64,000 nucleotides of DNA, taken from contig NC_087072.1 of the NCBI RefSeq assembly GCF_026151205.1, positions 20,364,103-20,428,102 of the forward strand. Reading direction: 5' to 3'. This document shows positions 3,870 to 63,764 of this stretch, in pieces. The position numbers and the translations under genes were made by a program. Numbering within the stretch: position 1 is the first letter of the stretch; every line of letters starts with the position of its first letter. The stretch is from Bolinopsis microptera. Taxonomy: Eukaryota; Ctenophora; Tentaculata; Lobata; Bolinopsidae. The notes beneath the pieces are model-generated. The model had not been told where the DNA came from. It was given only the letters and a program-made list of their open reading frames with translations, and searched no databases.

Positions 3870-4334
3870 CCTGGGGACTTCAGGCCTTTGTGTTCATAAG
3901 CACAATTGTAAAAATTCAAGATTGAAGATATGGCCGCCGAATGACAGGCTGAGCGCCGCCAAGTAATTTTTTATTTTGGGATTACTCTAAATTGTAGTTA
4001 ATTGTCATCGCATGTATTGTTTTTGTATATTAGAGCTTTAGCCACATGGGTAGGTTGGTCTTAAATTTAATCGCACAGTACAGCGGAATACAAAGAGATA
4101 AGAAATTTGACTCGCTCCTATGAAATGAACACCGAAAATAGTTCAATCCAATAAACACTGAAGCAGGTGCGGACAATTTACAAAATTCTATAATGAAATT
4201 GAATTTGTATTGTGGACGGATCTTGTTCTACAGATTTGCTATTTTAATATTTTGATTGGGCGGGGCTCCGCCTGTCATTCCGCCATATCTTCAATTGGTG
4301 TTTTATATGAACACAAAAGCCTGAGGTCTCCAGA
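3870..4334. mobile_element. Non-autonomous TIR element (MITE), about 465 bp
   Basis: The left end (ctggggacttcaggcctttg, then ttcat, gaagatatgg and the tgacaggctgagcgccgcc core) recurs as an imperfect inverted copy at the right end, which reads on the minus strand ctggagacctcaggcttttg, ttcat, gaagatatgg, tgacaggcggagccccgcc. The arms are about 75-90 bp and the interior has no coding capacity. No convincing target-site duplication is visible, so the superfamily is not assigned. Related ends occur at 235-261 and 34851-34945. Confidence 0.8.
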
Positions 4335-31170: not shown

Positions 31171-33444
31171 CTAGTCGTTGGAGTGGCCTGCACCACAAAG
31201 TAACTCCTTTCTCCGGTGTATTAGACCTCTCCAGTGAACCCTGTCTGTAGCTTGTTGTTCTGCATCTTCTATCGTGATGTTATCGACACCTGTGAAGATT
31301 GCTGCATCCTCCCGGACACATGACAACCAGTTTTTCCGAGGTCTACCTCTTGACCTTTTACCATGCTTTGGGATCCAGTGCAGAAGATAGTTGGGTATTC
31401 TTTCTTCTGGCATCCTCACCACATGGCCAAACCATCGGAGTCTAGCTGCTCGTACGAAAGTATCAACAGGGGCGATGTTAGCCCGCTTAAGTACATCAGC
31501 ATTAGATACATGATAAAACCATTTTATTTTCAGGATTCTCCTGAGACATCTATGATGGAACACCTCAAATCTTTTCATCTGCGTCTGTGTGGTATTCCAT
31601 ACCTCACTTCCATAAAGCAGTATAGTGAGAACAGCCGCTTTGTAAATCCTGATTTTAGTTGGAGTCTTGATGTTGCGACTGTACCATATACTGCTGAGCT
31701 GATAGAATGCCCCTGAGGCCTTTTGAATTCGAGCTGAAAGTTCTTTGTCAATTGTTCCATTCGCACTGATGATTGCACCCAAGTAAGTGAAATTGCTGAC
31801 CTGCTGTATTGGGAGACCTTCCACATTGATGTCCATAGTGTCGTCTTTAGAATACGGCCTCTGCGATGCACTTTTGCTGACAACCATGCTCTGTGTCTTG
31901 CCAGCATTAATCTTCAGACCCGCATAGGCACTGTATTTGCAGAGAAGGTCAGTGGTTTCCTGCAGCCCCTCTTTTGAGTTATCTAACATAGCCATGTCAT
32001 CAGCGTAATCAGTGTCCAAAAGATGTTTCTCTTCTACCCCGGGGGCTGGCAGCTGTAATAAAGCCCCTTTGCTAATGACCTTGTTCAGTTCCATAAGGTA
32101 TGCCGAAAAATTCAAACAAAAGTTGAAGACTGGTGGTCCCTGTATATCACCTTGCCCAGTCCCCGAGTTGACATCAAACCAACCTGTAACCTCTCCATTG
32201 ACCCTAACAGCACTAACTGTGTGAGTGAAGAACGCCTTCATAATTCTAATGTACTTGTCAGGTAAGCCGTAGTGCTGCATACTTCTCCAAATGAACTGCC
32301 TGTCAATTGAATCAAAAGCTGCTTTGAAATCAACAAACTTAATATACAGAGGGATATTATACTCAATGCATTGGTGTATAATACAGCGGAGTGAATAAAC
32401 CTGGTCAATACATGAGCGATTCTGTCTAAAACCACTTTGATTTTCCCGTAGGAATCTTTCCATGCCATTGCTAAGTCTCCGCAGGAGTATCATCTGCAGG
32501 AGCTTCGAGGCTGCGGATCTTAATGTAATGCCTCTGTTGTTAGCGCAATGAGAGGTGTCACCTTTCTTTCCAACGATGATAATAACACCTTTGGACCAAT
32601 CCTCAGGAATCTTCTCATCTTCCCACACTTTCTTGAACAACACAACTAGTTGATCGACCAACCCATCCTGTCCATACTTAAGTTGCTCGTTGGTGATACC
32701 ATCCACTCCTGGACTTTTGTGATTCTTGAGTTTTTTGAGGGCATCAACAATCTCGTTTCTTGTAGGAGCTTCATCCGAATCGGAAAGGTCGTCAAAACTG
32801 GGTTGCGGAGGGATGTTGTCTAGGTCAGAAATATTGGCCTCTTGCGGGGGAGGGTTCAATAGCCTAGAGAAGTGCTCTTTCCACCTTTCTTTCTGGGCAT
32901 GTGGGTCGGCAATCAACTGGCCAGATACGTCTCTAACTGCAGTTGACTGCTTCTTCTTCTTTCCAGATATGACATTGATCTTCTGCCATACCTCACGTTG
33001 CTGACCTTTTCTCGCAGCTTCTTCCAAGTCATTGGCCATTCTACGTGCCCAGTTGTTATCGTCCACCTTGCTACTTTTTTTAAAGAGCTTATTCAATCTA
33101 GAATACTCTGACCTGTTAGCGTTCGAATTAGGGTCTTTACGCTTAAATTCCTTACGGTTCTTCAATAATTCTTTTGTCTTCTGAGATTGGTGCCTGTCCT
33201 TCTTTTTTCGAGGTCTTTGCCCAAGGATTTCCATGGAAACTTGTTGGACAGTTGTCTTGAAGTTGTCCCACATAGATTCCAGGTCAACCTCAGGTTCCAA
33301 ACAGTCAAATTTGTTTCTCAGAACAATATTGTATTCGGAAACAAGTGAATGATCACGCAGATGCTCAATAGCAGGAATCTCAAGCTTACGTTCCTGCTTC
33401 TTTTTCACTGACATAAGCTTCATTCTCAGTCGTGCTCTTACCAA
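31171..33444 (-). mobile_element. RTE-like non-LTR retrotransposon, reverse-transcriptase ORF
   Basis: An uninterrupted minus-strand ORF of about 757 codons. RT motifs in order: KSPGVDGITNEQLK; GVIIIVGKKGD; NRGITLRSAASKLL; NQSGFRQNRSC; motif A VDFKAAFDSIDR; motif B SGTGQGDIQGPPVF; motif C TDYADDMAML; then FTYLGAIISANG, ILLYGSEVWN, LRWFGHVVRMP and KRSRGRPRKNW at the C-terminal end, and GAGHSND before the stop. All RT catalytic Asp residues are present. The ORF begins without a good Met (TTG context), and the usual AP endonuclease is not seen upstream, so the copy is 5'-truncated. The WFGHV/GRPRK tail resembles RTE-clade elements often mis-annotated as craniofacial development protein 2. The open frame suggests a young insertion. 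Confidence 0.9.
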
Positions 33445-42880: not shown

Positions 42881-43297
42881 CTCCACTAAGCATTATTATT
42901 ACCTCCACAACACCTCCACAACACCTCCACAACACCTCCACAACACCTCCACAACACCTCCACAACACCTCCACAACACCTCCACAACATCTCCACAACA
43001 CCTCCACAACACTTCCACAACACCTCCACAACACCTCCACAACACCTCCACAACACCTCCACAACACCTCCACAACACCTCCACAACACCTCCACAACAC
43101 CTTCACAACACCTCCACAACACAGTCACAACACCTTCACAACACCTCCACAACACCTCCACAACACCTCCACAACACCTCCACAACACCTCCACAACACC
43201 TCCACAACACCTCCACAACACCTCCACAACACCTCTACAACACCTTCACAACACCTCCACAACACCTTCACAACACCTCCACTAAGCATTATTATTA
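42881..43297. repeat. 11-bp satellite (ctccacaacac)n between matching flanks
   Basis: About 34 tandem copies of an 11-base unit with scattered substitutions (cttcacaacac, agtcacaacac). Because 11 is not a multiple of 3 and the unit lacks stops on the minus strand, long frames translate as an 11-residue repeat (EVLWRCCGGVV) over each 33 bp; these are artefacts, not genes. The array is bounded on both sides by ctccactaagcattattatt (42881-42900 and 43277-43296). Confidence 0.95.
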
Positions 43298-47408: not shown

Positions 47409-50400
47409 ATGTCCTTCAACAAGGATACCGGCATTCCGACTAGGTCAGTTTCTCTTGCGGGCAAGGGAAGCGTGGGGGTACCTAGAGGTAAATTAGTAGA
47501 TTCATGGCAGAAGAAAACAGCAACCACATCTGAAGAGACAGCTCCAAAACCAGCACTCAAGCCCTGGCAACAGTCGTCCTCAAAGGCAGCGGGTCTCGGC
47601 TCCATAGCCAGTAAGTTTGGAGGAGCTGGTAATGGCGGACCGTCCAAGTTTGGACCGTCTAAGTTCGGAGGTAGTCAGTCAGGCTCCAATACTCCTCCGG
47701 AACCTAGCACAACCTCTTTTAAAAGAACTTCTCCTACTGGCTCTAAAGGAGCTTCTCCATTTGGTTCGAAAGCAGTATCACCCAGCGCCTCGAAGGCAAC
47801 ATCGCCCTTTGGCTCGAAAACAGCATCTCCTAGCGCCTCGAAAACAGCATCACCCGGTACCGCAAAGCGATCCATTCCCGTGAGGAACAGCCCAAGATCA
47901 AGTCCGAAGTCTAGCCCTGTTACGAAGCGAAAGTCTCCTAAGACAAGTCCTAAATTTGGCAGGAAGAGTCCACCTAAAAGTCCTGCAAAGAAGTCCCCAA
48001 AGATTCCAAGAGCCGGTGGATCCCGATTTGGTGCACTGAAAGCCAAGGGCTTCAAAGGAGTGCTCAAAGAGCATGGGTTGTTGAAACAGAGAATCGAGAG
48101 AGTCAAAGAATTCATCAAAAAGCACAATAAAATTTCAGAAATCCAAAAAGAGCTTCTTATCAGTGCAATCGATAATGAAAGTTACACCTGCAGAGATCTT
48201 CAGCTGTGTATTTTCGCTGGTTCTGATCTTCAGGCTAAGTTTACCCTTCCTGGAAAGGATCCCAATAACCCCAAAGTTCTCCACAAGTCAACAAAACAGT
48301 TCATTCAACTTGCTGTTTCAAAGCTTAAGTTCCCCCAACATGTCAAAGACAAGCTCTCTCAAGCGATCGTCGATGACAATTGCGAGATTGGTCTCAGCAA
48401 AGTTACCATTCTGATTAAATCTGGTACCACAACCCAGAACATAACCTTGAATCTCCCTGGTGTGCTTTATCCACAGATCATTCAGCGAGAGACTAACATT
48501 GCAACTTCTTCCCTCATCGAAATCGTGGACAAATTCACTGTGGAACAGTCTATGAACGCTGATGAAAGGAACTCTGTGTTGTCCTCAATTTACAACAACA
48601 ACTATTCGCTGGACGGTCGTAGACTGTCAGTGCTAGTGAAGGACGGTGAAAAACGTAAGTCAGTAGACTTTGATATCGATCCTGCCAAGTTGACCGAAAA
48701 TGAAAGTGTCCCACCTGGCACTAGCCTACCATATTTCTACGTACCTGAGGATGTATCCGACGATGAGATCAAAGAGATCATGATCAAGACCATATCCTCT
48801 TCAACAATTGACACTGAAAGTATGGAACTTGCCATCAAAGCAATAAAACATGGCAGATATAGACGTGAGGGAAATAAGATCCTTATCGAAGGGTTCAAAC
48901 GTGATAGTCTGACATCGTCTGACGAGTGTGCCTCATCCCCTGAACTAGCTATCAAAATCCGCAAGAAAAAGGAGGAGGAACCCAAACCTTTCAGTGCAGT
49001 TATCGAGGCAACAACAGTTATGGAACAACAAGGCTTGAACGAACTTGAGAGCTTCAAATTCAACATTGGCCCTCTTAGCAATGAACTGATACAGCTTAAG
49101 CATAAGATAATCAAGGTCATCACCATGCTCAGCATCGAAGATAGGATAAAGATAGAACTCATTAACAAGCTCATCGATGACAATTTCAAGATTGATGGTA
49201 ATATTATAACTATTAAATCAACGACCTTAACGTTGTTCTTCATGACTACTGATTATGAGATTACGGATGTGAAGATTTCGTATAACAATAAAGTCCAATT
49301 CTGCAAATATATTCCTATTCGCATCGTTATTCTGGGTACAGATGCTATCAAGCAGTCCAAGTTTAATGAAGAAAAGAAAAAACTTCTGGTCGAGAAGTTC
49401 TACACTGGAGATTACGTTGAAGAACGAGGATCTGTTAAAATTGCCATCGCTTACAACAGAATCCCTGTTCGTTTCTCCTTTGGCATTCCAAAACCTGTTG
49501 CAACAATTCCTGATGTTCCTAAGGACGAACTCAAAGTTAAGGTCATCAACGACTTGTCCACAAGTGATCTTACCAAGGTTGAGCAAGATCAAGTGTTGCA
49601 GTCGCTTCTGGATGAGGACTATACACTGGTGAATACTGATGTTGTCTTCAAAATTGGTGTTCCGGTAAGATCTTACAGAGTTCGTTTGATAGTGGATAAC
49701 TCCTCCACCAGTACACCCAACACAGGGTCTCCTGCAGCTGTTAGAACTCCTGTAATGAAGGTTATCTCGAAACAGGATGATGTTGTGTTAGAGGAAATAG
49801 GACCCTCTAACTTCGATCAGCGACCTATTGACGGTGCCGTGAGGGAAAAACTGAGGGCGGTCATCATGATGAGTGATTTCGACGATGAGACTAAAACCAT
49901 TCTTTTAGCTCAGTTAGAACAGCTTTCCTACTTCACGGGTGATACAGTGACGATAGATTCAACAAAAGCTGACGGCACACCCGTTAGGTTCACTATCAAC
50001 GCTAAATTCACACACGAAGTGTTGTTTGTTGACTCTGGTGAAGGTGCACATAAAAACAAGAAGCAAAAAGTGGTAGTAGCTGGCGTCGAATCTGAAGATG
50101 TTGCTATGGTTGATGTAGAGGATTCGGAAATCCCAGACATTCAAGCTTTTTCTTCGAAGCCTGTTGAGCAAGCTCCAGAGAGTACAAAAGACGATGAGCC
50201 GACTGGAGCAAAAGTTCCCGTTACATCAGAAATACGAGTGTACCTGATCGACTCTGTGAAGAACAGCCAATTTGATCAAGAGATAAAAGACTTGCTCATC
50301 GGTGAGCTTACTGAACTTTCCTACATAACTGGTGATGCAGTCGAACTTAACGTTACCAAGAGTGATGGGACACCAGTAAAGTTAACTCTAAATTACTCCA

Positions 50401-53400
50401 CATCGTCGGAGACATACCCTCAGACTGCCGAGAAAATAGTGCCTAGCCCTGAGGACACTGTTTCTTCAAAGAAAGCTAAATTACCCGAAGATACGCCGTC
50501 ATCTGAGAAGGCTCCTGAGCAACCACTAACATTGGAAGAAGAGAATGTTGTTATGACCGAAGAAATGGTCCCGCTTGAAGATGAGGACATTCCAATGCAA
50601 GAGCCTGAGAAGGTATCAACAAGAGAGTCAGCACCTGATATCTCTATCAAACCTGAAAAGATAGCACCTAAACAAGATGCTCCTCAAGAACCTGATAGAC
50701 CTATAACACATTTAGATGACGTCAGTGTAAAAAGGCTAAAGGAAAGCTCGGAAGGAGTTCCTGCAGCGATCCCTGTAACAGATGAGATCAGAGATCAGCT
50801 GTTACGGTCTATTGATGCTAGTAATCTTGATGATGAGACCAAAGAACTGCTGAAAAAAGAAATACTGAAGCTGGAAGTTCTGGATGGCGACACAATAAAA
50901 TTGAAAACTGTAAAGAAGGATGGCACTCCAATAGAACTTACTATTAATGTTAAGAACATTGTTGAAGCAGCACAACCACCAACCACAAAACCAGTCAAGA
51001 AGCCCGAAGATGTTCGCAAAACTGCTGTTCCATCCTTAGATGAGGAAGATGTCCCCATGCCTGAAGAAAGCAATGCTACTGAGGTTGATGCCCCGATTCC
51101 CGTGCAAGAACCAGAGAAAGTTGCTCAAGATAAGTCTAGTCCTGACGCTCCTACAAATGTTACCAGTCCCGAGGCTGAACCAACTGTGTCAATTCCCATG
51201 ACAAACGAAATCAGGGATCAACTGACTCAATCGATTCGTGCACTTAATGTAGACGATGAAACTAAGGACCTTCTAGTAGATGAGATTAACAAGCTTGAAA
51301 CCTTGGATGGTGACACTATCAAGTTGAAAACGACCAAAAAAGATGGTACACCTGTAGAGCTTACAATCAACGTCAAAAACATAATTGAGGCAGCAGCTCC
51401 CAAACAAAAACCAGATAACAAGCAGGCAACTGCAGCAGCAGCTTCATCAAAACCCACTGTTACGGAAGAAGATGTTCCAATGTCTGACGAGGAGGTTTCC
51501 CTGCAAGTTGATGAAGACATCCCAATGCAGGAGGAACAGAAGGTAAATGAAAGGGAGTCTCAGCCGGATGCCCCCAAGGGAACAGCAAAAATCTTACCTG
51601 CTACAGGAACTCCTAAGAAGGCTGATCAGCCAGTCACTCATTTGGATGACGGATCAGAACCTTCTGTGTCTGTGCCTATGACTGACGACATCAGGGATCA
51701 ACTGACTCAATCGATTCGTGCACTTAATGTAGACGATGAAACTAAGGACCTTCTAGTAGACGAGATTAATAAGCTTGAATCTTTGGATGGTGACACTATC
51801 AAGTTGAAAACGACCAAAAAAGATGGTACACCAGTAGAGCTTACAATCAACGTCAAGAACATAATTGAGGCAGCAGCACCCCAACAAAAACCAGATAAAA
51901 AGCAGGCAGCTCCAGCAGCAGCTTCTTCAAAACCCACTGTTACGGAAGAAGATGTTCCAATGTCTGACGAGGAGGTTTCCCCACAAGTCGACGAGGACAT
52001 CCCAATGCAGGAGGAACAGAAGGTAAAAGAAAGGGAGTCTCAACCGGATGCCCCCAAGGGAACAGCGAAAGTATTACCTGCTACAGGAACTCCCAAGAAG
52101 GCTGACCAGCCAGTCGCTCATTTGGATGATGTCAGTGTAACAAGAAAACTAGCCAGCCCTGCATCAGAGCCTTCTGTGTCTGTTCCAATGACTGACGACA
52201 TCAGAGATCAGCTAATTCAATCTATTGAAGGTAGCAATCTGGATGATGAGACTAAAGATCTGCTCAAAGACGAGATTAACAAGCTTGATGCTTTAGATGG
52301 TGACACCATTAAGTTGAAAACGACTAAAAAAGATGGTACTCCAGTAGAGCTTACAATCAACGTCAAAAACATCATCGAGGCAGCAGCTCCCCAACAAAAA
52401 ACAGATAAAAAGCAGGCAGCTCCAGCAGCAGCTTCATCAAAACCCACTGTGACGGAAGAAGATGTCCCAATGTCTGATGAGGAGGTTTCTCCACAAGTTG
52501 ACGAAGACATCCCAATGCAGGAGGAACAGAAGGTAAAAGAAAGGGAGTCTCAACCGGATGCCCCCAAGGGAACAGAGAAAATCTTACCTGCTACAGGAAC
52601 TCCTAAGAAGGCTGATCAGCCAGTCACTCATTTGGATGACGGATCAGAACCTTCTGTGTCTGTGCCTATGACTGACGACATCAGGGATCAACTGACTCAA
52701 TCGATTCGTGCACTTAATGTAGACGATGAAACTAAGGACCTTCTAGTAGACGAGATTAATAAGCTTGAATCTTTGGATGGCGACACTATCAAGTTGAAAA
52801 CGACTAAAAAAGATGGTACACCAGTAGAGCTTACAATCAACGTCAAAAACATAATTGAGGCAGCAGTTCCCCAACAAAAACCAGTTAAAAAGCAGGCAGC
52901 TCCAGCAGCAGCTTCTTCAAAACCCAATGTTACGGAAGAAGATGTTCCAATGTCTGATGAGGAGGTTTCCCCACAAGTCGACGAGGACATCCCAACGCAG
53001 GAGGAACAGAAGGTAAAAGAAAGGGAGTCTCAACCGGATGCCCCCAAGGGAACAGAGAAAATCGTACCTGCTACAGGAACTCCTAAGAAGGCTGACCAGC
53101 CAGTCGCTCATTTGGATGATGTCAGTGTAACAAGAAATCTAGCCAGCCCTGCATCAGAGCCTTCTGTGTCTGTTCCAATGACTGACGACATCAGAGATCA
53201 GCTAATTCAATCTATTGAAGGTAGCAATCTGGATGATGAGACTAAAGATCTGCTTAAAGACGAGATTAACAAGCTTCATGCTTTAGATGGTGACACCATT
53301 AAGTTGAAAACGACTAAAAAAGATGGTACTCCAGTAGAGCTTACAATCAACGTCAAAAACATCATCGAGGCAGCAGCTCCCCAACAAAAACCAGTTAAAA

Positions 53401-56400
53401 AGCAGGCAGCTCCAGCAGCAGCTTCTTCAAAACCCAATGTTACGGAAGAAGATGTTCCAATATCTGATGAGGAGGTTTCCCCACAAGTCGACGAGGACAT
53501 CCCAACGCAGGAGGAACAGAAGGTAAAAGAAAGGGAGTCTCAACCGGATGCCCCCAAGGGAACAGAGAAAATCTTACCTGCTACAGGAACTCCTAAGAAG
53601 GCTGATCAGCCAGTCACTCATTTGGATGACGGATCAGAACCTTCTGTGTCTGTGCCTATGACTGACGACATCAGGGATCAACTGACTCAATCGATTCGTG
53701 CACTTAATGTAGACGATGAAACTATCAAGTTGAAAACGACCAAAAAAGATGGTACACCAGTAGAGCTTACAATCAACGTCAAGAAAATAATTGAAGCAGC
53801 AGCTCCCCAGCAAAAACCAGTTAAAAAGCAGGCATCTCCAGCAGCAGCTTCTTCAAAACCCAATGTTACGGAGGAAGATGTTCCAATGTCTGACGAGGAG
53901 GTTTCCCCACAAGTCGACGAGGACATCCCAACGCAGGAGGAACAGAAGGTAAAAGAAAGGGAGTCTCAACCGGATGCCCCCAAGGGAACAGAGAAAATCT
54001 TACCTGCTACAGGAACTCCTAAGAAGGCTGACCAGCCAGTCGCTCATTTGGATGATGTCAGTGTAACAAGAAATCTAGCCAGCCCTGCATCAGAGCCTTC
54101 TGTGTCTGTTCCAATGACTGACGACATCAGAGATCAGCTAATTCAATCTATTGAAGGTAGCAATCTGGATGATGAGACTAAAGATCTGCTTAAAGACGAG
54201 ATTAACAAGCTTCATGCTTTAGATGGTGACACCATTAAGTTGAAAACGACTAAAAAAGATGGTACTCCAGTAGAGCTTACAATCAACGTCAAAAACATCA
54301 TCGAGGCAGCAGCTCCCCAACAAAAACCAGTTAAAAAGCAGGCAGCTCCAGCAGCAGCTTCTTCAAAACCCAATGTTACGGAAGAAGATGTTCCAATATC
54401 TGATGAGGAGGTTTCCCCACAAGTCGACGAGGACATCCCAACGCAGGAGGAACAGAAGGTAAAAGAAAGGGAGTCTCAACCGGATGCCCCCAAGGGAACA
54501 GAGAAAATCTTACCTGCTACAGGAACTCCTAAGAAGGCTGATCAGCCAGTCACTCATTTGGATGACGGATCAGAACCTTCTGTGTCTGTGCCTATGACTG
54601 ACGACATCAGGGATCAACTGACTCAATCGATTCGTGCACTTAATGTAGACGATGAAACTAAGGACCTTCTAGTAGATGAGATTAATAAGCTTGAATCTTT
54701 GGATGGCGACACTATCAAGTTGAAAACGACCAAAAAAGATGGTACACCAGTAGAACTTACAATCAACGTCAAAAACATAATTGAGGCAGCAGCTCCCCAA
54801 CAAAAACCATTTGAAAAGCAAGCAGCTCCAGCAGCAGCTTCATCAAAACCCACTGTTACGGAAGAGGATGTCCCAATGTCTGATGAGGAGGTTTCTCCAC
54901 AAGTTGACGAAGACATCCCAATGCAGGAGGAACAGAAAGTCAAAGAAAGGGAGTCTCAGCCGGATGCCCCCAAGGGAACAGAAAAAATCTTGCCTGCTAC
55001 AGGAACTCCTAAGAAGGCTGATCAGCCAGTCACTCATTTGGATGACGGATCAGAACCTTCTGTGTATGTGCCTATGACTGACGACATCAGGGATCAACTG
55101 ACTCAATCGATTCGTGCACTTAATGTAGACGATGAAACCAAGGACCTTCTAGTAGACGAGATTAATAAGCTTGAATCTTTGGATGGCGACACTATCAAGT
55201 TGAAAACGACCAAAAAAGATGGTACACCTGTAGAGCTTACAATCAACGTCAAAAACATAATTGAGGCAGCAGCTCCCCAACAAAAACCAGATAAAAAGCA
55301 GGCAGCTCCAGCAGCAGCTTCATCAAAACCCACTGTCACGGAAGACGATGTCCCAATGTCTGATGAGGAAGTTTCCCCACAAGTCGACGAGGACATTCCA
55401 ATGCAGGAAGAAAAGAAGGTTAAAGAAAGGGAGTCTCAACCAGATGCCCCCAAGGGTACGCAGAAAATTTTACCCGCTACAGGAACTCCGAAGAAGGCTG
55501 ATCAGCCAGTCGCTCACTCAGCAAAACCTACTGTCACTGAAGAAGATGTCCCAATGTCTGATGAGGAAGTTTCCCCGCAAGTCGACAAGGACATTCCAAT
55601 GCAGGAAGAAAAGAAGGTTAAAGAAAGGGAGTCTCAACCAGATGCCCCCAAGGGAACGGAGAAAATCTTACCCGCTACAGGAACTCCCAAGAAGGCTGAT
55701 CAGCCAGTCGCTCATTTGGATGATGTCAGTGTAACAAGAAAATTAGCCAGCCCTGGATCAGAACCATCCGTGTCTGTTCCAATGACTGACGATATCAGAG
55801 ATCAGCTAATTCAATCTATTGAAGGTAGCAATCTGGACGATGAAACTAAAGATCTGCTGAAGGACGAGATTAACAAGCTTGATGCTTTAGATGGTGACAC
55901 CATTAAGTTGAAAACGACTAAAAAAGATGGTACTCCAGTAGAGCTGACAATCAACGTCAAGAACATAGTTGAAGCAGCAACTCCAGTCCATCAGAAACCA
56001 GTCGAGGACAAACCAACTTCAGAACCTTCTGAAACACCGTCTAAACCATTACGAGCAGTGGAGAAGACAACAAAATCGCCACAAGTTGTGGAGGAGGATG
56101 TTTTAATGTCTGAAGACGAAATCAGTCCCCAAATCGACGAAGATAATATACCATTGCAAGAAGAAAAGAAGGTCAAGGAAAGGGAATCGCAACCAGATGT
56201 CCCCGAGGGAACAAAGGAAAGTCCCAAGAAGGCTGATAAGCCAGTCGCTCATTTGGATGATGTTAGTGTAACAAGGAAACTAGCCAGCCCTGGATCAGAG
56301 CCTTCTGTGTATGTGCCTATGACTGATGACATCAGAGATCAACTCAACCAGTCAATCGATGGTAGCAATCTTGACGATGAAACTAAAGATCTGCTTAAAG

Positions 56401-59400
56401 ACGAGATAAATAAGCTGGACAATTTAGATGGTGATACCATCAAGTTGAAAACGACTAAAAAAGATGGTACACCAGTTGAGCTTACAATCAACGTCAAGAA
56501 CATAGTTGAAGCGTCGAAGCCACTCCAGCAGAAGCCAGCTGTTGAGGAGCCAACCTCTATAACTCCTGAACGACCGTCTAAACCATCACGAGCAGCAGAT
56601 AAGGTGACCAAATCACCGGAAGTTGTTGAAGAGGATGTCCCAATGTCTGATGAGGAGGTTTCCCTACAAGTTGACGAGGACATCCCAATGCAGGACGAAC
56701 AGAAGGTAAAAGAAAGGGAGTCTCAACCGGATGCCCCCAAGGGAACAGAGAAAATCTTACCTGCTACAGGAACTCCTAAGAAGGCAGATCAGCCTGTTGC
56801 TCATTTGGATGATGTCAGTGTCACAAGAAAACTAGCAAGCCCTGGATCAGAACCATCTGTGTCTGTGCCTATGACTGACGACATCAGAGATCAGCTAATT
56901 CAATCTATTGAAGGTAGCAATCTGGATGATGAGACTAAAGATCTGCTCAAAGACGAGATTAACAAGCTTGATGCTTTAGATGGTGACACCATTAAGTTGA
57001 ATACGACTAAAAAAGATGGTACTCCAGTTGAGCTTACAATTAACGTCAAAAATATAGTTGAAGCATCGAAGCCACTCCAGCAAAAACCAACTGTCGACAA
57101 GCCAACCTCTGTAGCTCCTGAACGACCGTCCAAGCCATCACGTGCAGCAGATAAGGTGACCAAATCACCAGAAGTTGTTGAGGAGGATGTCCCAATGTCT
57201 GATGAGGAGGTTTCCCCGCTAGTTGACGAGGGCATTCCAATGCAGGAGGAGCAGAAGGTAAAAGAAAGTGAGTCTCAGCCGGATGCCCCCAAGGGAACAG
57301 AGAAAACTTTACCTGCTACAGAAGCTCCCAAGGAGGCTGATCAGCCAGTCGCTCATTCAGCAAAACCTACTGTCACGGAAGAAGATGTTCCAATGTCTGA
57401 TGAGGAGGTTTCCCCGCAAGTTGACGAGGACATTCCAATGCAGGAAGAAAAGAAGGTAAAGGAAAAGGAGTCCCAGCCGGATGTCCCCAAGGGAACAGAG
57501 AAAATCTTACCTGCTACAGGAACTCCTAAAAAGGCTGATCAGCCAGTAGCTCATTTGGATGATGTCAGTGTAACAAGAACACTAGCAAGTCCTGGATCAA
57601 AGCCTGTTTCTATTCTTATGACTGATGATATTAGAGATCAGCTTACTCAGTCTATCGATGCTAGCAACCTTGATGATGAGACAAAAGATCTTCTAAAAGA
57701 TGAAATAAACAAACTTGAAGCTTTGGATGGCGACACCATAAAGTTGAAGACCGCCAAACAGGATGGCACTCCGATAGAGCTCACTATAAACGTCAAAAAC
57801 ATAATCGAGGCATGTCAGCCTGATCCTTCAACACCGTCAAGAGCAGTTGAGAAACCTGCCGAAAGTTCACTAGCTGAGCCTGTCAAGGTACCATCATTAG
57901 AGGAAAGTGATAAACCAATGTGTGATGAGGAGATTGCTCCTGAAGTTGATGAGGATATTCCAGAGCAAGTGTCACAAGAGGTGACTGGACGAGAGTCTGC
58001 ACCTGATGTGCCAAAGGAATCTTCTAAGCCAGTCACAGAGTCCGAACCAAGTGTTCGCAAACAACCAGAAGACGTCGTGCTTAGCAAAGATGCTCCCGAA
58101 GACATCGCTCAGTCTCCAACTCATTTAGATGATGTAAGTGTGACAAGAAAAATAGCTAGTCCTGAATCGAAACCTGAACCCATTCCCATGACAGATGACA
58201 TGAGAGACCAACTGATTCAATCAATCCGGGCAAGCAATCTTGATGATGAGACAAAGGATCTTCTAGAAGATGAGGTTAATAAACTTGACACTTTGGATAG
58301 TGAAACTATCAAGCTTTCAACAGCTAAAAAAGATGGCACCCCTATAGAACTAACTATCAACGTGAAACACATTATTGAAGCATCGCAGCCTGCATCAAAG
58401 GAGGCAGTAGAGCCAATGGACACTGCCCCTGTTATTAGCGAATCTTCTGACCCTGTGACGAAAGTGGTAGCAGATCCTAAATCACCTAAATTGGAGGAAG
58501 AGGATGTTCCTATGCCTGTTGAGGAGATAGCTCCCCAAGCTGACGAAGATATTCCAATGCAAGAACCTCAAAAGGTTTCAGGAAGACAATCGGAACCTGT
58601 CCTCGCAAAAGAACCAGAGGACAAACCCGAAGTTGATCTGCCAAAGGAGTCCCCAGTTAGTGCTCCAGTTTCTACACCTCAGAAAGAAGACAAAACTGAG
58701 CCTGAACCTATACCAGATGATGAACCAGCGAGAGAAATAACGACGTCTGATGAGGAAGGAGAAAGTCGCGTTTTACCTGCTATTTCTGCGCCAAAGCCTA
58801 TACCCACAGTTGTTGTTGAACCCTGTACTCCTGTTGGAAGCCAACCTAAAATACCCGGTGTTACAGTTAGTGAAGAAGAGTCGCCAGAAGTCACTCAGCT
58901 TGAGGATGTGACTATCACTGAAGTACAAGCAGCTCCTTCTGAAGAAAACGAACCCCTCCCAATCACTGATGATTTGAAAGAACAGCTCATCAAATCAGTA
59001 CAAGCTAGTCCTCTTGATGAGGAAACTGTTTGTCTATTAGAAGATGAAATAAAGAAGTTGGAAAATCTAGAAGGTGACACTATGACACTCAGTGCCACAA
59101 AGGAGGATGGTACACCTGTAGAACTTACCATCAACATCAATCAAATGATCAAATCCGCTGATGAAGGGTCTTCTGATGAGGAAGACGGTGGTTCCTCATC
59201 TTCATCATCATCATCATCAGACTCTTCTGTAGAGTCCGATAAAGAGGATGATGTTCAGCATCTGGGTGATGTCTGTTTGGTGGTCGCACCTATTAATCAA
59301 TCCAGTAGACGAATTTCAACTCCAATGACTGATGAGTTACGGTCCCAGCTTGTTGAGGCCCTGAAATGTGGTGACTTAGATAGTGAAACTGTGGAAATCT

Positions 59401-62400
59401 TCACAAAGGAAATCGAAAATCTTAAGGAAATTGAGGGAGATCAGGTTAAGCTTAAATCAAAGAAACCTGATGGCAGTCCAGTTGAGTTAACTATCAATGT
59501 TGCAAATATTCTTCGCAACAATTCTTCGCCTGACCAAGTTCCCGTTGAGCCTCTGAAGCCAGTTTTGGTTTATCCTATCAAGATCAGCCAAGAAATAACT
59601 GTTGAAGGTGCCCCTGAAACTGCCACATATGTCACTGATGAAACCAAGGATAAGATAAAAGATTCCTTACCATCGTGTGAAATCGACGATGAAGCAATCA
59701 AGCTACTTAGTGATGGTATTGATAAATTGACACAACTTAAAGATGATGTTGTAACGATAAATGCTGTCAAGAAGGACGGTACTCCAGTAGAGTTGATTTT
59801 GAATGTCAAACACGTGCCAAAGGAGGTGATCCCAGCCTCAAGTGATGAGGCTGCTGCTCTACCTGATCTTTCTAAAAATGACGTCTCCCCCAAGAAGGTG
59901 AAAGTTAAGCCAATGAAATCCATTGAAGTGGAACCAATAAAACTCCACGAAGCTGTTAAAGTTATGTCTAGCTCAGACATTCAGAAGCCTGTCACTCCGC
60001 TTACTGATGATATAAAAGCTCAGATAGTTGCTTCTTTGAAAGAAGGAAACGTAGATGATGAGGTGATTGCTATGATGGTCGATGAACTGAACAAGCATAA
60101 AGACCTTGAAGGAGACTCAGTAACGTTGAAAGCCAAAAAGAAAGATGGTACACCTGTTGAGCTTACTATAAACATCAAACATGTCATGAAAAACTTGTTT
60201 CCTGCGATTCCTTCTGATGGAAGTGATGGTGTTGGCGACAGTGGAGATGATCAGGATGTATCGGACGTAGAGTCAGTTCCAGAACAGATTGTTGTCGAAC
60301 CTGCCAAACCAACCGAGGTTGCTCCACTGAAGGTACAACCATTGTCTAGTGAAGATGTCGAAGATATAACCCCGACTAATGATGATGCTACTCCAACTAA
60401 CGATTCTCCTGTCATAAAAGAAGAACCAGATGTTGCCGAATGCGAGTCTGCACCAGCTACTGCTGTTCCTATGACAGATGATATCAAGAAGCAAATCCTG
60501 GACGCCTTGAAAGGTGCTAATCTCGACGATGAAACATTGGAACTTCTCAGTGACGAGATTGACAAGGTGCCTGAATTAGATGGAGAGAAGATGCATCTGA
60601 CTGCAAAGAAGAAGGATGGTACTCCAATTGATCTGACTATCAACATCAGCCATATCACCAAGATTGTTTCTCCTGCTAGTAGTGATGATGGTTTTGAAAT
60701 GGTTGAAATGCCAGTAGAAGAACCTGAGGTTTTAGAGGCACCTGTTATTTCTTCCGAGGAAAAATCTGTGACGGAGTCATCCCCAGAAGTTCAGCCTATA
60801 GAGGTAAAACTTTCTCTCCAAATGGAGGGCTCGCCTGACAAAGATTCCGATAAACCCAGTATACCAATCTCCGAGGAGGTTCGTTCTAAGATTGTGGATT
60901 CATTGAAGAAAACAGGTCTAGATGACGAAGCAACCGAACTATTAGTGAAAGAAGTTGCTAAATTGGACACTTTAGAGGGAGACCAGGTCATAGTCAATAC
61001 TCAAAAGGAAGATGGTACTCCAGTTCATTTAACAATAAATGTGTCTCATTTAACTCGTCACATCGTTCCTATTCCTGCTGGAGATGATGATGGTTATGAG
61101 TTGGTTGAAGCAGCAGATAAACCTGTCGATCAATCTGCCCCAACAATTACTGTCGAAGAAATAGCACTGACAGAAGAGGTTCCTCCCGAAGAGAGTGGTA
61201 TTGAGGATATCAACGTTGAGATGGATGAGGCACCTGAAGTTGAAGAAATGCCTGAAGAGCCAGTTGAAAAGAAGATGATTCCAGTCACCGTAGACATCAA
61301 AGCTCAGATCATGGATTCATTGAAAGGAGCAGATCTTGATGATGAGACACTCGCTCTGCTAGAGAAAGAGGTCGACAAATTGGACAATCTTGAAGGTGAT
61401 CAGATTAAGCTTGATGCTAAGAAAAAAGATGGCACACCGATATCTTTGGCAATAAACATCTCTCATATCACCAGACATATTGCTCCAACACCTGTCTCAG
61501 ATGAAGAGGGATATGAACTAGTTGAGGCTGCTGAGGTTCCTAAAAAAGCACCTAGTATTGAAGAATTACCTCTTATGGAAGAAATTCCTACTGATGAAAG
61601 TGGCATTGAGGATATCAGCGTTGAAAGGGATGAGCTTCCTGAAGTTGAAAAACTACCTGAAGAGCCAGTTCAACACAAGAAAGTTCCAGTTACTGAAGAC
61701 ATCAAATCTCAGATTTTAGATTCATTGAAAGGAGCTGATCTTGATGAAGAAACACTCGATCTTTTGGAGAAAGAGGTCGACAAATTAGATAATTTGGAAG
61801 GTGACCAAATAAAACTGGATACGAAAAAGAAGGACGGGACTCCGATATCTTTGACGATCAACGTGTCCCATATCACCCGGCATATTGCTCCAACACCAGT
61901 TGAAGAGGATGAAAGCTACGAGTTGGTAGCCTCAGATGATGTCACTCCTGTTGAAAAGGAAGAGCCCGCCAAAACGGAACAAGAGCCAGTTGCGACTCCA
62001 ATAACTGATGCTATAAAGGCACAGATCATTCTTTCTTTACAATCTGGTGATTTCGATGATGAAACCATGAAAATTCTCGAGGAAGAACTCGAAAAGATTG
62101 ACTCTGTTGATGATGGTAAGATGGAAATCGCTGCTACAAAGAAAGATGGTACACCGATTAACTTGACGGTTAACATCAACAACATTGTCAAGAATATTGT
62201 CCCTGTTCCTATGGATGAGGAAGAGGGTTACGAGCTCATTGAAAGTGCGCCAGTTCCAGTCCAATGTGATCTCAAAGTCGCCCTAGAAAGCCCGACTGAT
62301 ATCACGGATATCCCTGTTACCGACGATATAAAGTCACAGATTGCTGATACTTTGAAATCGTCAGGTCATGATGAAGAGACGATTGATCTCTTACGAGAAC

Positions 62401-63764
62401 AACTCGGCAAGTTGTTGAACTTAAATGGTGATACTGTTGAGCTGTCGACGTACAAAAAGGATGGAACTCCAATTGATTTTACGATCAATATTCATCGTAT
62501 CACAAAAATAACTGTGCCAGTTTCCCTAAAAGAAGAGCCCCAAGAGGAGAGTCCTGACTCCAAAAAAGTTATCCCAATAACACTTGAAATCAAGGCTCAG
62601 ATCGTAGACTCGTTAAAATCTGCTGATCTTGACGAGGAGACACTTGATCTGCTTGAAAAGGAAGTAGAGAAGCTCGACAATCTGGAGGGTCATAGCATCG
62701 ACTTAAACATCGCTAAGAAAGACGGAACTCCGATCAGCCTTACTATCAACTTGGAGAACATTACCAAAAACATTGCTCCAACAACCCTTGAAAGTGAGGA
62801 TGCTCCTGAGCTCCTGGAGTCTGTAGATATGGATCCGTGTGAAGATATAACTGTTGAGCAAGATATCAAAGAGAAGGTTCATCGTGCCCCTCTTGCACTT
62901 GATATCCCTGTTTCACTTGCTTGTATCGGTAAAGACATTAAAGCTGTTCCAATTGGTATGGATGATTACGGATATGCCTTGGAATATCCCAAAGCTAAGA
63001 AAGAGGAACCCCTGGAGCCGCTTGGACAATTCTTGGCAGTCCATACTGAGATAACTGACAAGATTAAAGAAGCAATCATTGCATTGGATATTCCCAAACC
63101 TGCAAAAGAAGATCTGATCAAGGAGCTTGATAACGGAAATATGATGGCTTGTGGTGCAAATGGTCTTATAAAGACTACACTCGAAATTATTGAGCCTGTC
63201 GCTACGCTCGTCAACTTGACTCTTCCTGATACTCCTGTGAACCCAGGTGATATTGTCGTAGACTTTTCTCAGCCCAAAGAAGATACAGCTGAAATACCTT
63301 TGAAAGAAGAGGTTGCTCCTGAAGAGGGTGGTATTGAGGATATTCACGTTGAATCAGAGAAGGTACCCGAAGTTTTAGAAGAGCCTGGTGAGAAGAAGAT
63401 GGTTCCAGTTACCGAAGATATAAAAGCCCAGATCATGGATTCACTGAAAGGAGCAAATCTTGATGGTGAAACCCTTGATCTACTGGAGAAAGAAGTCGAC
63501 AAATTGGACAATCTTGAAGGTGACCAGGTCAAACTTATTACTGAGAAAGAAGACGGCACACCGATAGCTTTGACAATAAACGTATCGCATATTACCAAAC
63601 ATATTGCTTCAATACCTGTGTCAGATGAAGAGGAATATGAACTAGTAGAGCCTGCAGAAGAACCGAAAAAAGAAACCGGCGTCGAAGATTTACCCCTGGT
63701 GGAGGTGGTTGTTGATGTCTTAGATTACTGCAACATCGACGAAGATTGTAAGTTTATTAGCTGA
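47409..63764 (+). CDS. Giant 5,451-residue modular repeat protein, single exon
   Basis: One uninterrupted frame of about 16.4 kb from ATG (aaatATGTCC; MSFNKDTGIPTR) to TGA. Residues about 75-210 are basic and Ser/Pro/Lys-rich (SPKSSPVTKRKSPKTSPK). From about residue 218 a module of about 60 residues recurs some 37 times. The first seven copies and one near residue 5220 are strongly diverged; about 29 are clear, with consensus IxxQLxxSIxxxNLDDETxx LLxxEIxKLxxLDGDTIKLK followed by KKDGTPVELTINV. I infer two amphipathic helices, then a beta hairpin with the DGTP turn. Linkers are acidic and PEST-like (EEDVPMSDEEV, DEDIPMQE, HLDDVSV). A Ser/Asp/Glu tract lies near residues 3918-3945. No signal peptide, transmembrane segment or catalytic motif is visible, suggesting an intracellular scaffold or elastic/structural protein. 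The family is unknown to me. An upstream exon may exist. Confidence 0.9.
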   Translation: MSFNKDTGIPTRSVSLAGKGSVGVPRGKLVDSWQKKTATTSEETAPKPALKPWQQSSSKAAGLGSIASKFGGAGNGGPSKFGPSKFGGSQSGSNTPPEPSTTSFKRTSPTGSKGASPFGSKAVSPSASKATSPFGSKTASPSASKTASPGTAKRSIPVRNSPRSSPKSSPVTKRKSPKTSPKFGRKSPPKSPAKKSPKIPRAGGSRFGALKAKGFKGVLKEHGLLKQRIERVKEFIKKHNKISEIQKELLISAIDNESYTCRDLQLCIFAGSDLQAKFTLPGKDPNNPKVLHKSTKQFIQLAVSKLKFPQHVKDKLSQAIVDDNCEIGLSKVTILIKSGTTTQNITLNLPGVLYPQIIQRETNIATSSLIEIVDKFTVEQSMNADERNSVLSSIYNNNYSLDGRRLSVLVKDGEKRKSVDFDIDPAKLTENESVPPGTSLPYFYVPEDVSDDEIKEIMIKTISSSTIDTESMELAIKAIKHGRYRREGNKILIEGFKRDSLTSSDECASSPELAIKIRKKKEEEPKPFSAVIEATTVMEQQGLNELESFKFNIGPLSNELIQLKHKIIKVITMLSIEDRIKIELINKLIDDNFKIDGNIITIKSTTLTLFFMTTDYEITDVKISYNNKVQFCKYIPIRIVILGTDAIKQSKFNEEKKKLLVEKFYTGDYVEERGSVKIAIAYNRIPVRFSFGIPKPVATIPDVPKDELKVKVINDLSTSDLTKVEQDQVLQSLLDEDYTLVNTDVVFKIGVPVRSYRVRLIVDNSSTSTPNTGSPAAVRTPVMKVISKQDDVVLEEIGPSNFDQRPIDGAVREKLRAVIMMSDFDDETKTILLAQLEQLSYFTGDTVTIDSTKADGTPVRFTINAKFTHEVLFVDSGEGAHKNKKQKVVVAGVESEDVAMVDVEDSEIPDIQAFSSKPVEQAPESTKDDEPTGAKVPVTSEIRVYLIDSVKNSQFDQEIKDLLIGELTELSYITGDAVELNVTKSDGTPVKLTLNYSTSSETYPQTAEKIVPSPEDTVSSKKAKLPEDTPSSEKAPEQPLTLEEENVVMTEEMVPLEDEDIPMQEPEKVSTRESAPDISIKPEKIAPKQDAPQEPDRPITHLDDVSVKRLKESSEGVPAAIPVTDEIRDQLLRSIDASNLDDETKELLKKEILKLEVLDGDTIKLKTVKKDGTPIELTINVKNIVEAAQPPTTKPVKKPEDVRKTAVPSLDEEDVPMPEESNATEVDAPIPVQEPEKVAQDKSSPDAPTNVTSPEAEPTVSIPMTNEIRDQLTQSIRALNVDDETKDLLVDEINKLETLDGDTIKLKTTKKDGTPVELTINVKNIIEAAAPKQKPDNKQATAAAASSKPTVTEEDVPMSDEEVSLQVDEDIPMQEEQKVNERESQPDAPKGTAKILPATGTPKKADQPVTHLDDGSEPSVSVPMTDDIRDQLTQSIRALNVDDETKDLLVDEINKLESLDGDTIKLKTTKKDGTPVELTINVKNIIEAAAPQQKPDKKQAAPAAASSKPTVTEEDVPMSDEEVSPQVDEDIPMQEEQKVKERESQPDAPKGTAKVLPATGTPKKADQPVAHLDDVSVTRKLASPASEPSVSVPMTDDIRDQLIQSIEGSNLDDETKDLLKDEINKLDALDGDTIKLKTTKKDGTPVELTINVKNIIEAAAPQQKTDKKQAAPAAASSKPTVTEEDVPMSDEEVSPQVDEDIPMQEEQKVKERESQPDAPKGTEKILPATGTPKKADQPVTHLDDGSEPSVSVPMTDDIRDQLTQSIRALNVDDETKDLLVDEINKLESLDGDTIKLKTTKKDGTPVELTINVKNIIEAAVPQQKPVKKQAAPAAASSKPNVTEEDVPMSDEEVSPQVDEDIPTQEEQKVKERESQPDAPKGTEKIVPATGTPKKADQPVAHLDDVSVTRNLASPASEPSVSVPMTDDIRDQLIQSIEGSNLDDETKDLLKDEINKLHALDGDTIKLKTTKKDGTPVELTINVKNIIEAAAPQQKPVKKQAAPAAASSKPNVTEEDVPISDEEVSPQVDEDIPTQEEQKVKERESQPDAPKGTEKILPATGTPKKADQPVTHLDDGSEPSVSVPMTDDIRDQLTQSIRALNVDDETIKLKTTKKDGTPVELTINVKKIIEAAAPQQKPVKKQASPAAASSKPNVTEEDVPMSDEEVSPQVDEDIPTQEEQKVKERESQPDAPKGTEKILPATGTPKKADQPVAHLDDVSVTRNLASPASEPSVSVPMTDDIRDQLIQSIEGSNLDDETKDLLKDEINKLHALDGDTIKLKTTKKDGTPVELTINVKNIIEAAAPQQKPVKKQAAPAAASSKPNVTEEDVPISDEEVSPQVDEDIPTQEEQKVKERESQPDAPKGTEKILPATGTPKKADQPVTHLDDGSEPSVSVPMTDDIRDQLTQSIRALNVDDETKDLLVDEINKLESLDGDTIKLKTTKKDGTPVELTINVKNIIEAAAPQQKPFEKQAAPAAASSKPTVTEEDVPMSDEEVSPQVDEDIPMQEEQKVKERESQPDAPKGTEKILPATGTPKKADQPVTHLDDGSEPSVYVPMTDDIRDQLTQSIRALNVDDETKDLLVDEINKLESLDGDTIKLKTTKKDGTPVELTINVKNIIEAAAPQQKPDKKQAAPAAASSKPTVTEDDVPMSDEEVSPQVDEDIPMQEEKKVKERESQPDAPKGTQKILPATGTPKKADQPVAHSAKPTVTEEDVPMSDEEVSPQVDKDIPMQEEKKVKERESQPDAPKGTEKILPATGTPKKADQPVAHLDDVSVTRKLASPGSEPSVSVPMTDDIRDQLIQSIEGSNLDDETKDLLKDEINKLDALDGDTIKLKTTKKDGTPVELTINVKNIVEAATPVHQKPVEDKPTSEPSETPSKPLRAVEKTTKSPQVVEEDVLMSEDEISPQIDEDNIPLQEEKKVKERESQPDVPEGTKESPKKADKPVAHLDDVSVTRKLASPGSEPSVYVPMTDDIRDQLNQSIDGSNLDDETKDLLKDEINKLDNLDGDTIKLKTTKKDGTPVELTINVKNIVEASKPLQQKPAVEEPTSITPERPSKPSRAADKVTKSPEVVEEDVPMSDEEVSLQVDEDIPMQDEQKVKERESQPDAPKGTEKILPATGTPKKADQPVAHLDDVSVTRKLASPGSEPSVSVPMTDDIRDQLIQSIEGSNLDDETKDLLKDEINKLDALDGDTIKLNTTKKDGTPVELTINVKNIVEASKPLQQKPTVDKPTSVAPERPSKPSRAADKVTKSPEVVEEDVPMSDEEVSPLVDEGIPMQEEQKVKESESQPDAPKGTEKTLPATEAPKEADQPVAHSAKPTVTEEDVPMSDEEVSPQVDEDIPMQEEKKVKEKESQPDVPKGTEKILPATGTPKKADQPVAHLDDVSVTRTLASPGSKPVSILMTDDIRDQLTQSIDASNLDDETKDLLKDEINKLEALDGDTIKLKTAKQDGTPIELTINVKNIIEACQPDPSTPSRAVEKPAESSLAEPVKVPSLEESDKPMCDEEIAPEVDEDIPEQVSQEVTGRESAPDVPKESSKPVTESEPSVRKQPEDVVLSKDAPEDIAQSPTHLDDVSVTRKIASPESKPEPIPMTDDMRDQLIQSIRASNLDDETKDLLEDEVNKLDTLDSETIKLSTAKKDGTPIELTINVKHIIEASQPASKEAVEPMDTAPVISESSDPVTKVVADPKSPKLEEEDVPMPVEEIAPQADEDIPMQEPQKVSGRQSEPVLAKEPEDKPEVDLPKESPVSAPVSTPQKEDKTEPEPIPDDEPAREITTSDEEGESRVLPAISAPKPIPTVVVEPCTPVGSQPKIPGVTVSEEESPEVTQLEDVTITEVQAAPSEENEPLPITDDLKEQLIKSVQASPLDEETVCLLEDEIKKLENLEGDTMTLSATKEDGTPVELTININQMIKSADEGSSDEEDGGSSSSSSSSSDSSVESDKEDDVQHLGDVCLVVAPINQSSRRISTPMTDELRSQLVEALKCGDLDSETVEIFTKEIENLKEIEGDQVKLKSKKPDGSPVELTINVANILRNNSSPDQVPVEPLKPVLVYPIKISQEITVEGAPETATYVTDETKDKIKDSLPSCEIDDEAIKLLSDGIDKLTQLKDDVVTINAVKKDGTPVELILNVKHVPKEVIPASSDEAAALPDLSKNDVSPKKVKVKPMKSIEVEPIKLHEAVKVMSSSDIQKPVTPLTDDIKAQIVASLKEGNVDDEVIAMMVDELNKHKDLEGDSVTLKAKKKDGTPVELTINIKHVMKNLFPAIPSDGSDGVGDSGDDQDVSDVESVPEQIVVEPAKPTEVAPLKVQPLSSEDVEDITPTNDDATPTNDSPVIKEEPDVAECESAPATAVPMTDDIKKQILDALKGANLDDETLELLSDEIDKVPELDGEKMHLTAKKKDGTPIDLTINISHITKIVSPASSDDGFEMVEMPVEEPEVLEAPVISSEEKSVTESSPEVQPIEVKLSLQMEGSPDKDSDKPSIPISEEVRSKIVDSLKKTGLDDEATELLVKEVAKLDTLEGDQVIVNTQKEDGTPVHLTINVSHLTRHIVPIPAGDDDGYELVEAADKPVDQSAPTITVEEIALTEEVPPEESGIEDINVEMDEAPEVEEMPEEPVEKKMIPVTVDIKAQIMDSLKGADLDDETLALLEKEVDKLDNLEGDQIKLDAKKKDGTPISLAINISHITRHIAPTPVSDEEGYELVEAAEVPKKAPSIEELPLMEEIPTDESGIEDISVERDELPEVEKLPEEPVQHKKVPVTEDIKSQILDSLKGADLDEETLDLLEKEVDKLDNLEGDQIKLDTKKKDGTPISLTINVSHITRHIAPTPVEEDESYELVASDDVTPVEKEEPAKTEQEPVATPITDAIKAQIILSLQSGDFDDETMKILEEELEKIDSVDDGKMEIAATKKDGTPINLTVNINNIVKNIVPVPMDEEEGYELIESAPVPVQCDLKVALESPTDITDIPVTDDIKSQIADTLKSSGHDEETIDLLREQLGKLLNLNGDTVELSTYKKDGTPIDFTINIHRITKITVPVSLKEEPQEESPDSKKVIPITLEIKAQIVDSLKSADLDEETLDLLEKEVEKLDNLEGHSIDLNIAKKDGTPISLTINLENITKNIAPTTLESEDAPELLESVDMDPCEDITVEQDIKEKVHRAPLALDIPVSLACIGKDIKAVPIGMDDYGYALEYPKAKKEEPLEPLGQFLAVHTEITDKIKEAIIALDIPKPAKEDLIKELDNGNMMACGANGLIKTTLEIIEPVATLVNLTLPDTPVNPGDIVVDFSQPKEDTAEIPLKEEVAPEEGGIEDIHVESEKVPEVLEEPGEKKMVPVTEDIKAQIMDSLKGANLDGETLDLLEKEVDKLDNLEGDQVKLITEKEDGTPIALTINVSHITKHIASIPVSDEEEYELVEPAEEPKKETGVEDLPLVEVVVDVLDYCNIDEDCKFIS
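51180..57600 (+). repeat. Homogenised tandem array inside the giant gene
   Basis: Module-plus-linker units are nearly identical at DNA level. Type A (SIRALNVDDET, linker ending HLDDGSEPS) spans 480 bp and type B (SIEGSNLDDET, linker with HLDDVSVTRKLASP) 510 bp, alternating as dimers of about 990 bp from 51.2 to 54.6 kb, then A-A and variant copies. One A copy at about 53.70 kb lacks 54 bp (18 codons) between two acta motifs. Near 55.4-55.7 and 57.2-57.5 kb the linker is doubled without a module between (AHSAKPTVTEEDVP). All changes keep the frame. Confidence 0.92.

Follow-up and report, generated by a model that had tools for sequence, protein, structure and literature searches.

A giant repeat protein of the ctenophore Bolinopsis microptera: a module without a known family and candidate Atg8-docking motifs

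A 64,000-nucleotide stretch of the Bolinopsis microptera genome (contig NC_087072.1, positions 20,364,103 to 20,428,102 of the forward strand; "the window" below) carries a giant open reading frame, and it raises a simple question: what might a protein made of some 37 copies of one module, with no named family, be for? The first-pass annotation of this DNA had described an open frame of 5,451 residues, and the frame does translate without interruption, as 5,451 codons plus a stop (Table 1), into a protein of roughly 600 kDa. The answer we favour, at odds of about one in three, is a soluble multivalent tether: a basic head would anchor it, an acidic array of modules would make it expandable, and a C-terminal block may recruit Atg8-family proteins.

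Five relatives (P0002-P0006, all from "ena") came to light when 5.8 billion proteins were searched three times, with scoring limited to the top word-sharing candidates (1,198, 7,990 and 1,105). Identity to the giant protein is 94% in P0002 (over residues 3550-5450), 66% in P0003 and P0004, and 31% in P0005 (59% over the head); P0006 shows 44% over the head and, with 1,297 residues on a 34-kb contig, is perhaps cut short. No relative was confirmed in viral, bacterial or archaeal contigs. The giant frame is not a chance product, because the five relatives, on other contigs, keep it and because adjacent modules have low dN/dS: 0 to 0.16 in 13 of 27 pairs (in 13 more the synonymous sites are saturated, and the two modules of one pair do not differ), values that homogenisation may affect. 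Judged by these ratios, the modules appear to be under purifying selection. Translation probably starts at the ATG at 47409, since all five relatives have a methionine at this position and the aligned GIPT motif is kept in P0002-P0005; upstream, the frame stays open for 5 more codons, to a TTG at 47394. In its own genome (264.65 Mb in 232 contigs, the window sitting on one of 26.2 Mb) the gene is single-copy: the conserved head has one match, and the 29 matches of the hallmark module all lie within the giant gene.

The hallmark module is recognised by DG[TS]P[IV], found in it at 29 sites: 28 belong to complete modules, some 60-68 residues long, and one to a copy without its middle (residues 2085-2131). 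Its consensus is TDDIRxQLxxSLKxxxLDDETxDLLxxExxKLxxLxGDxxKLxxxKKDGTPIxLTINV (drawn from 20 rows, of which one is misregistered). A profile of the 29 sites, rescored on its own training copies, regains the 28 modules at 75-106 bits and the truncated copy as two pieces (21 and 37 bits). Eight degenerate modules, seven in the head and one near the tail, bring the total to 37, in line with the approximate number given by the first-pass annotation. The seven head modules are weak by sequence: in local profile comparison with the hallmark, modules 4-7 reach E values of 1.6e-4 to 2.7e-3 (HH probability 11-51%), and modules 1-3, at 0.09-0.19, show no sequence relation. The module near the tail was assigned by eye, and the residues around it (5140-5279) are 75.7-99.3% identical in P0002-P0004.

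Structure prediction points to a small alpha-alpha-beta-beta domain without a known family, as the helix-helix-hairpin described earlier would have it. The model of a single module, from an alignment of 33 module sequences of the window, has helices at 3-15 and 20-32, strands at 40-46 and 52-58 and a short helix at 63-66. In an AlphaFold2 model of residues 221-874, eight helix-helix-strand units follow one another, the eighth being the first hallmark module; predicted structure thus weakly links the head modules to the hallmark.

Does the module belong to a family that is already known? With the whole protein submitted to Pfam in three pieces and 33 modules singly, no single stretch rose above a curated cut-off, and Pfam and Protein Data Bank (PDB) sequence searches gave no credible match, which bears out the earlier statement that the module could not be matched to a named family. 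Eight families (Pap_E4, ExoU_mid_dom, RNA_pol_Rpb1_6, Ntox35, Phage_30_8, CsgE, VbhA and Cuticle_1) exceeded the whole-protein cut-off with no stretch passing alone. These scores are sums, since the repeats are near-identical, and the last seven families are mutually incompatible. One CcmH stretch passes E 1 alone, at 13.2 bits against a cut-off of 25. The PAS domain was also rejected: P0006 scores 20.0 bits against 22.6 over profile positions 56-97 of 113, with no stretch passing alone, and among the 33 modules of the window a single one matches PAS, with a best E of 0.14, and a single one PAS_9, with a best E of 0.1. The hairpin, KKDGTP[IV]xLxINV, does match a portion of the PAS profile's C-terminal half, but the full PAS fold needs strands before and after its helices, and the modelled module (H-H-E-E) has none before them. 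The PAS labels that P0005 carries are precomputed database labels. Another candidate, subdomain IIB of the Hsp70 nucleotide-binding domain (NBD), showed no sequence relation: hhalign scored it against the module at 8.4, below a reversed profile (9.2) and the best of 100 column-shuffled ones (14.4), using an Hsp70 profile of five sequences, of which human HSPA8 was confirmed. The module also stands free, without the ATPase core. That it is a distant IIB subdomain, freed and amplified, which might bind Hsp70 nucleotide-exchange factors, we regard as extremely unlikely. The repeat family is new to all libraries tested, while giant modular scaffolds with disordered linkers are of a known kind. That a module building a protein of this size, and kept in at least five other protein records, has no family model in those libraries is an annotation gap.

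Complete hallmark modules number 28 in the window protein and 27, 23, 22, 33 and 4 in P0002-P0006. A module-by-module comparison took in P0003, P0005 and P0006 (P0004 was left out). Against P0003, each of the 14 modules 3-16 has its nearest kin among the paralogues of its own protein and not in P0003, although 13 and 15 have reciprocal best partners there as well; 12 of the 14 others (1, 2, 17-22 and 24-27, but not 23 and 28) are reciprocal best matches, in an order that is not strict throughout; in the C-terminal block the figure is 10 of 11. The middle of the protein thus grows and homogenises and its ends are kept, a natural case for the growth of giant scaffolds. By its sequence, the central array is recently expanded and homogenised. 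Complete modules in it stand 160-190 residues apart in 9 of 12 intervals, and aromatic residues are nearly absent (three in residues 1004-3997). In the C-terminal part, modules are better kept than linkers (78.7 vs 64.2% identity in P0003, 79.4 vs 64.7% in P0004, 96.7 vs 93.6% in P0002). The head is kept in all five relatives, and its residues 211-370 show 80-100% identity to P0002-P0005 and 57-69% to P0006.

These patterns could also be read as those of an elastic or volume-filling spacer, in which array length counts and specific contacts do not, the modules serving only as folded beads along a string of acidic, disordered linkers. A module number that varies so much (allowing for P0006, whose 4 may reflect a truncated record) and a homogenised array nearly free of aromatics would suit it. 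Conserved motifs in the linkers, C-terminal modules that differ individually and a modular head kept so strongly would be surprising in a mere spacer, and we think this reading unlikely. The earlier suggestion of a "spring" or "phase-separating" protein found no positive evidence either: conservation is highest in the modular head and not in the spacers.

Charge divides the protein. The head (residues 1-224) is basic, residues 225-872 have a net charge of -5, and the remainder is strongly acidic: the linkers carry net -331 over 2,804 residues, with 13.7% proline and 13.5% glutamate. The acidic spacers and basic, SPK-rich head of the first reading are borne out by these figures. Both tryptophans of the protein lie in the head, W53 being kept in all five relatives and W33 in P0002-P0005. 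Since no transmembrane-like segment was found (best 19-residue hydropathy mean 1.24), no signal peptide was seen by eye and cysteines are few (19 in 5,451 residues), the sequence suggests a soluble protein, cytosolic or nuclear.

To call the linkers "PEST-like" was right as to their acidity and undersold them otherwise, for they hold conserved short motifs, one of which resembles a docking site for LC3/Atg8. Counts in the window protein and P0002-P0006 are 22, 20, 14, 14, 12 and 0 for [DE]D[IV]PM; 9, 8, 9, 8, 2 and 1 for LDDVx[VI]; and 6, 6, 4, 5, 4 and 2 for [DES][GSE][FWY]E[LIMV][VIL]. Shuffled-sequence controls gave at most 0.07 for each of the three. By the same counts [ST]PKK is not a conserved motif, with 14 copies in the window protein (shuffles 0.72), 5 in P0002 and none in the other four relatives. 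Twelve TPKK sites, about one per linker, lie in the central array linkers (residues 1401-3372); TPKK is possibly a lineage-specific phosphorylation site.

The third conserved motif, whose usual form is DEEGYELVEAAE, combines the core [W/F/Y]xx[L/I/V] and an acidic flank, which is the pattern of an LC3-interacting region (LIR). The LC3-docking motif of FUNDC1, YEVL, is built the same way, its LIR core preceded by acidic residues (PMC7297954). Judging from this pattern, the six copies in the window, of type [DE][DE]x[GSE][YF]E[LM][VI], are most likely candidate docking sites for Atg8/LC3/GABARAP proteins. They are confined to residue 4427 onward, and in residues 4265-5186 five of them supply the sole aromatics outside modules. 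In P0005, three of its four copies (at 5685, 5722 and 5743) lie in the linker between the modules at 5582-5645 and 5817-5877; because they share a linker with no module among them, the motif can stand free. A different use of it is conceivable. Ligands of Src-type SH2 domains look like Y-E-x-[VIL], although a literature search gave no confirmation, and YELV-type motifs might be tyrosine-phosphorylation sites recruiting SH2 proteins. Phenylalanine replaces tyrosine in one of six copies in the window and in two of four in P0005, which disfavours a phosphotyrosine site and suits an LC3-type pocket, so that SH2 recruitment is very unlikely.

If the tether reading holds, the parts would work together as follows. 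The Ser-Pro-Lys head would most likely anchor the protein to a negatively charged polymer, either a cytoskeletal filament or nucleic acid, and the conserved eight-module head block could form its core interaction surface. The central array, with its near-identical modules and acidic linkers, would act as an expandable multivalent spacer that sets length and valence. The C-terminal block, with its distinct modules and six motifs, would most likely dock an Atg8/LC3/GABARAP-type partner, and membranes or vesicles bearing such proteins would thereby be tethered to the anchored end.

Several observations weigh against this. First, basic SP-rich heads are found in DNA-binding proteins too. Second, most copies of the docking-like motif keep a set distance from the hairpin DG: of 27 counted across the six proteins, 20 have their tyrosine or phenylalanine 28 residues past it, and another four have it 26 or 29 past. 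The motif could therefore belong structurally to the module, as an extension of it. Both points would fit a nuclear or chromatin-associated multivalent protein whose head (pI 11.7, with 15 SP/TP sites) binds DNA or RNA and whose modules recruit regulators, the YELV-type motif being part of the module. The three free-standing copies in P0005 speak against that arrangement, as does the lack of any credible nucleic-acid-binding domain in the Pfam and PDB sequence searches, and we rate it as improbable, if worth keeping in view. Third, as regards the tether, [DE]D[IV]PM and LDDVx[VI] are conserved and have no assigned partner. Fourth, the end modules are not one-to-one at greater distance: of the 28 modules, P0005 yields reciprocal best matches for 4 and P0006 for 1. 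Finally, confidence is moderate for the single-module model (pLDDT 75.7, pTM 0.55) and low overall for the head model (pLDDT 59.5, pTM 0.35), which was for that reason read for the order of its elements, not for their packing.

Known proteins offer two comparisons. Futsch/MAP1B has a similar length, a long exon, basic and acidic regions, many repeats and a historical link to LC3. Here, by contrast, Pfam gave no MAP1 domain, with E allowed up to 1 for residues 1-964 and 3532-5451 and up to 0.1 for residues 965-3531, and the repeats are predicted to be folded alpha-alpha-beta-beta domains. Giant ankyrins, which contain long disordered stretches, are the nearest functional parallel, without kinship: they too are very long and have a scaffold role, and they carry a short motif for Atg8-family proteins whose binding is proven there and predicted here. 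The LC3/GABARAP-docking motif of giant AnkB and AnkG, and their proven binding of Atg8-family proteins, are described in PMC7564214. The present protein differs in having six candidate copies of the motif and an unrelated repeat module, and no ankyrin-type family was among the Pfam matches of the three pieces covering it. It is decidedly doubtful that a new family evolved a giant polyvalent Atg8 (LC3/GABARAP) tether independently of ankyrins and MAP1, as an adjustable rod anchored to a filament or nucleic acid with up to six distal motifs. If the motif does bind Atg8 proteins, a giant tether serving autophagy or trafficking would have arisen here independently, and the protein would offer multivalent binding peptides.

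The 3′ end casts doubt on the description of the gene as "single-exon". Conservation with P0003-P0005 ends at DYCN[IL]DED or the like, and what comes next in the window is a GTAAGT whose first base stands 14 upstream of the stop codon; past this point the three relatives run on with sequence unlike that of the window. Because GTAAGT occurs just four times in the whole frame (near expectation from equal base frequencies), its presence exactly where conservation ends is unlikely to be chance. The residues of P0003-P0005 at that point, CK or GK, are compatible with GTAAG at the protein level. P0002 ends exactly as the window protein does, which at 94% identity is not discriminating. From these sequences we think that an intron starts at 63748 and that the protein has a further exon, although one was looked for downstream and not found. 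The giant frame is probably one very long exon, and its last codons may be intron read through.

Table 1. Position of the giant gene and its parts in the window
Feature	Residues	Position	Strand	Basis
Open reading frame, 5,451 codons + stop		47409..63764	+	frame, relatives P0002-P0006
Basic Ser/Pro/Lys-rich head	1-224	47409..48080	+	net +36, pI 11.7
Seven degenerate modules, best conserved block of the protein	225-764	48081..49700	+	alignment, profile comparison, model
First three hallmark modules and linkers	807-1190	49827..50978	+	profile
Central array, 13 complete hallmark modules + 1 truncated	1264-3661	51198..58391	+	profile
C-terminal block, 11 individually distinct hallmark modules	3852-5125	58962..62783	+	profile, reciprocal matches
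Docking-like motif 1, DGFEMV	4427-4432	60687..60704	+	motif scan
Docking-like motif 2, DGYELV	4561-4566	61089..61106	+	motif scan
Docking-like motif 3, EGYELV	4700-4705	61506..61523	+	motif scan
Docking-like motif 4, ESYELV	4835-4840	61911..61928	+	motif scan
Docking-like motif 5, EGYELI	4939-4944	62223..62240	+	motif scan
Degenerate tail module	5212-5276	63042..63236	+	sequence only
Last hallmark module	5334-5401	63408..63611	+	profile
Docking-like motif 6, EEYELV	5408-5413	63630..63647	+	motif scan
Probable splice donor GTAAGT		63748..63753	+	conservation with P0003-P0005 ends there

Other features lie around the giant gene. Downstream on the same strand (window-equivalent positions 80484-89901, loci L010 and L011) are gene-like frames with N-terminal PWKxxLKKT-like repeats; the head of the giant protein likewise has two tryptophan motifs. 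After these repeats come several frames of a repeat of about 50 residues (about YVxxLTxEQWxxxxxxxxFAGLxIxYTMxxGxYVVxLTxEQYExYKK), with no Pfam family above cut-off. Within L011, at window-equivalent 84332-88403, two frames of 765 and 671 residues in opposite orientation have a long stretch in common and, by eye, look like inverted retroelements. Retroelement frames also lie upstream in the window, at 23340-25808, 29211-30518 and 31171-33444: matches to copia-type gag and zinc knuckle are weak, both below cut-off, and of two RVT_1 matches one is above and one just below. At 42901-43282 a minisatellite with an 11-base unit, ACCTCCACAAC, runs for 34.7 copies with 95% matches and is open in several frames. 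The window further holds a single-frame gene like rhodopsin-type G-protein-coupled receptors (7132-8301, 389 residues; at 29.9 bits it falls just short of the 30.5 cut-off) and a leucine-rich-repeat exon on the minus strand (18678-18974, LRR_8, 38.5 bits against 27). Elsewhere in the genome there are at least 154 matches to the cysteine-protease family Peptidase_C1, many in one open frame. A search pattern gave a readable frame in 4 of 12 of these loci (L018-L029), and two of those four end in a short Cys-rich C-terminal tail, which we take to be ShK-like.
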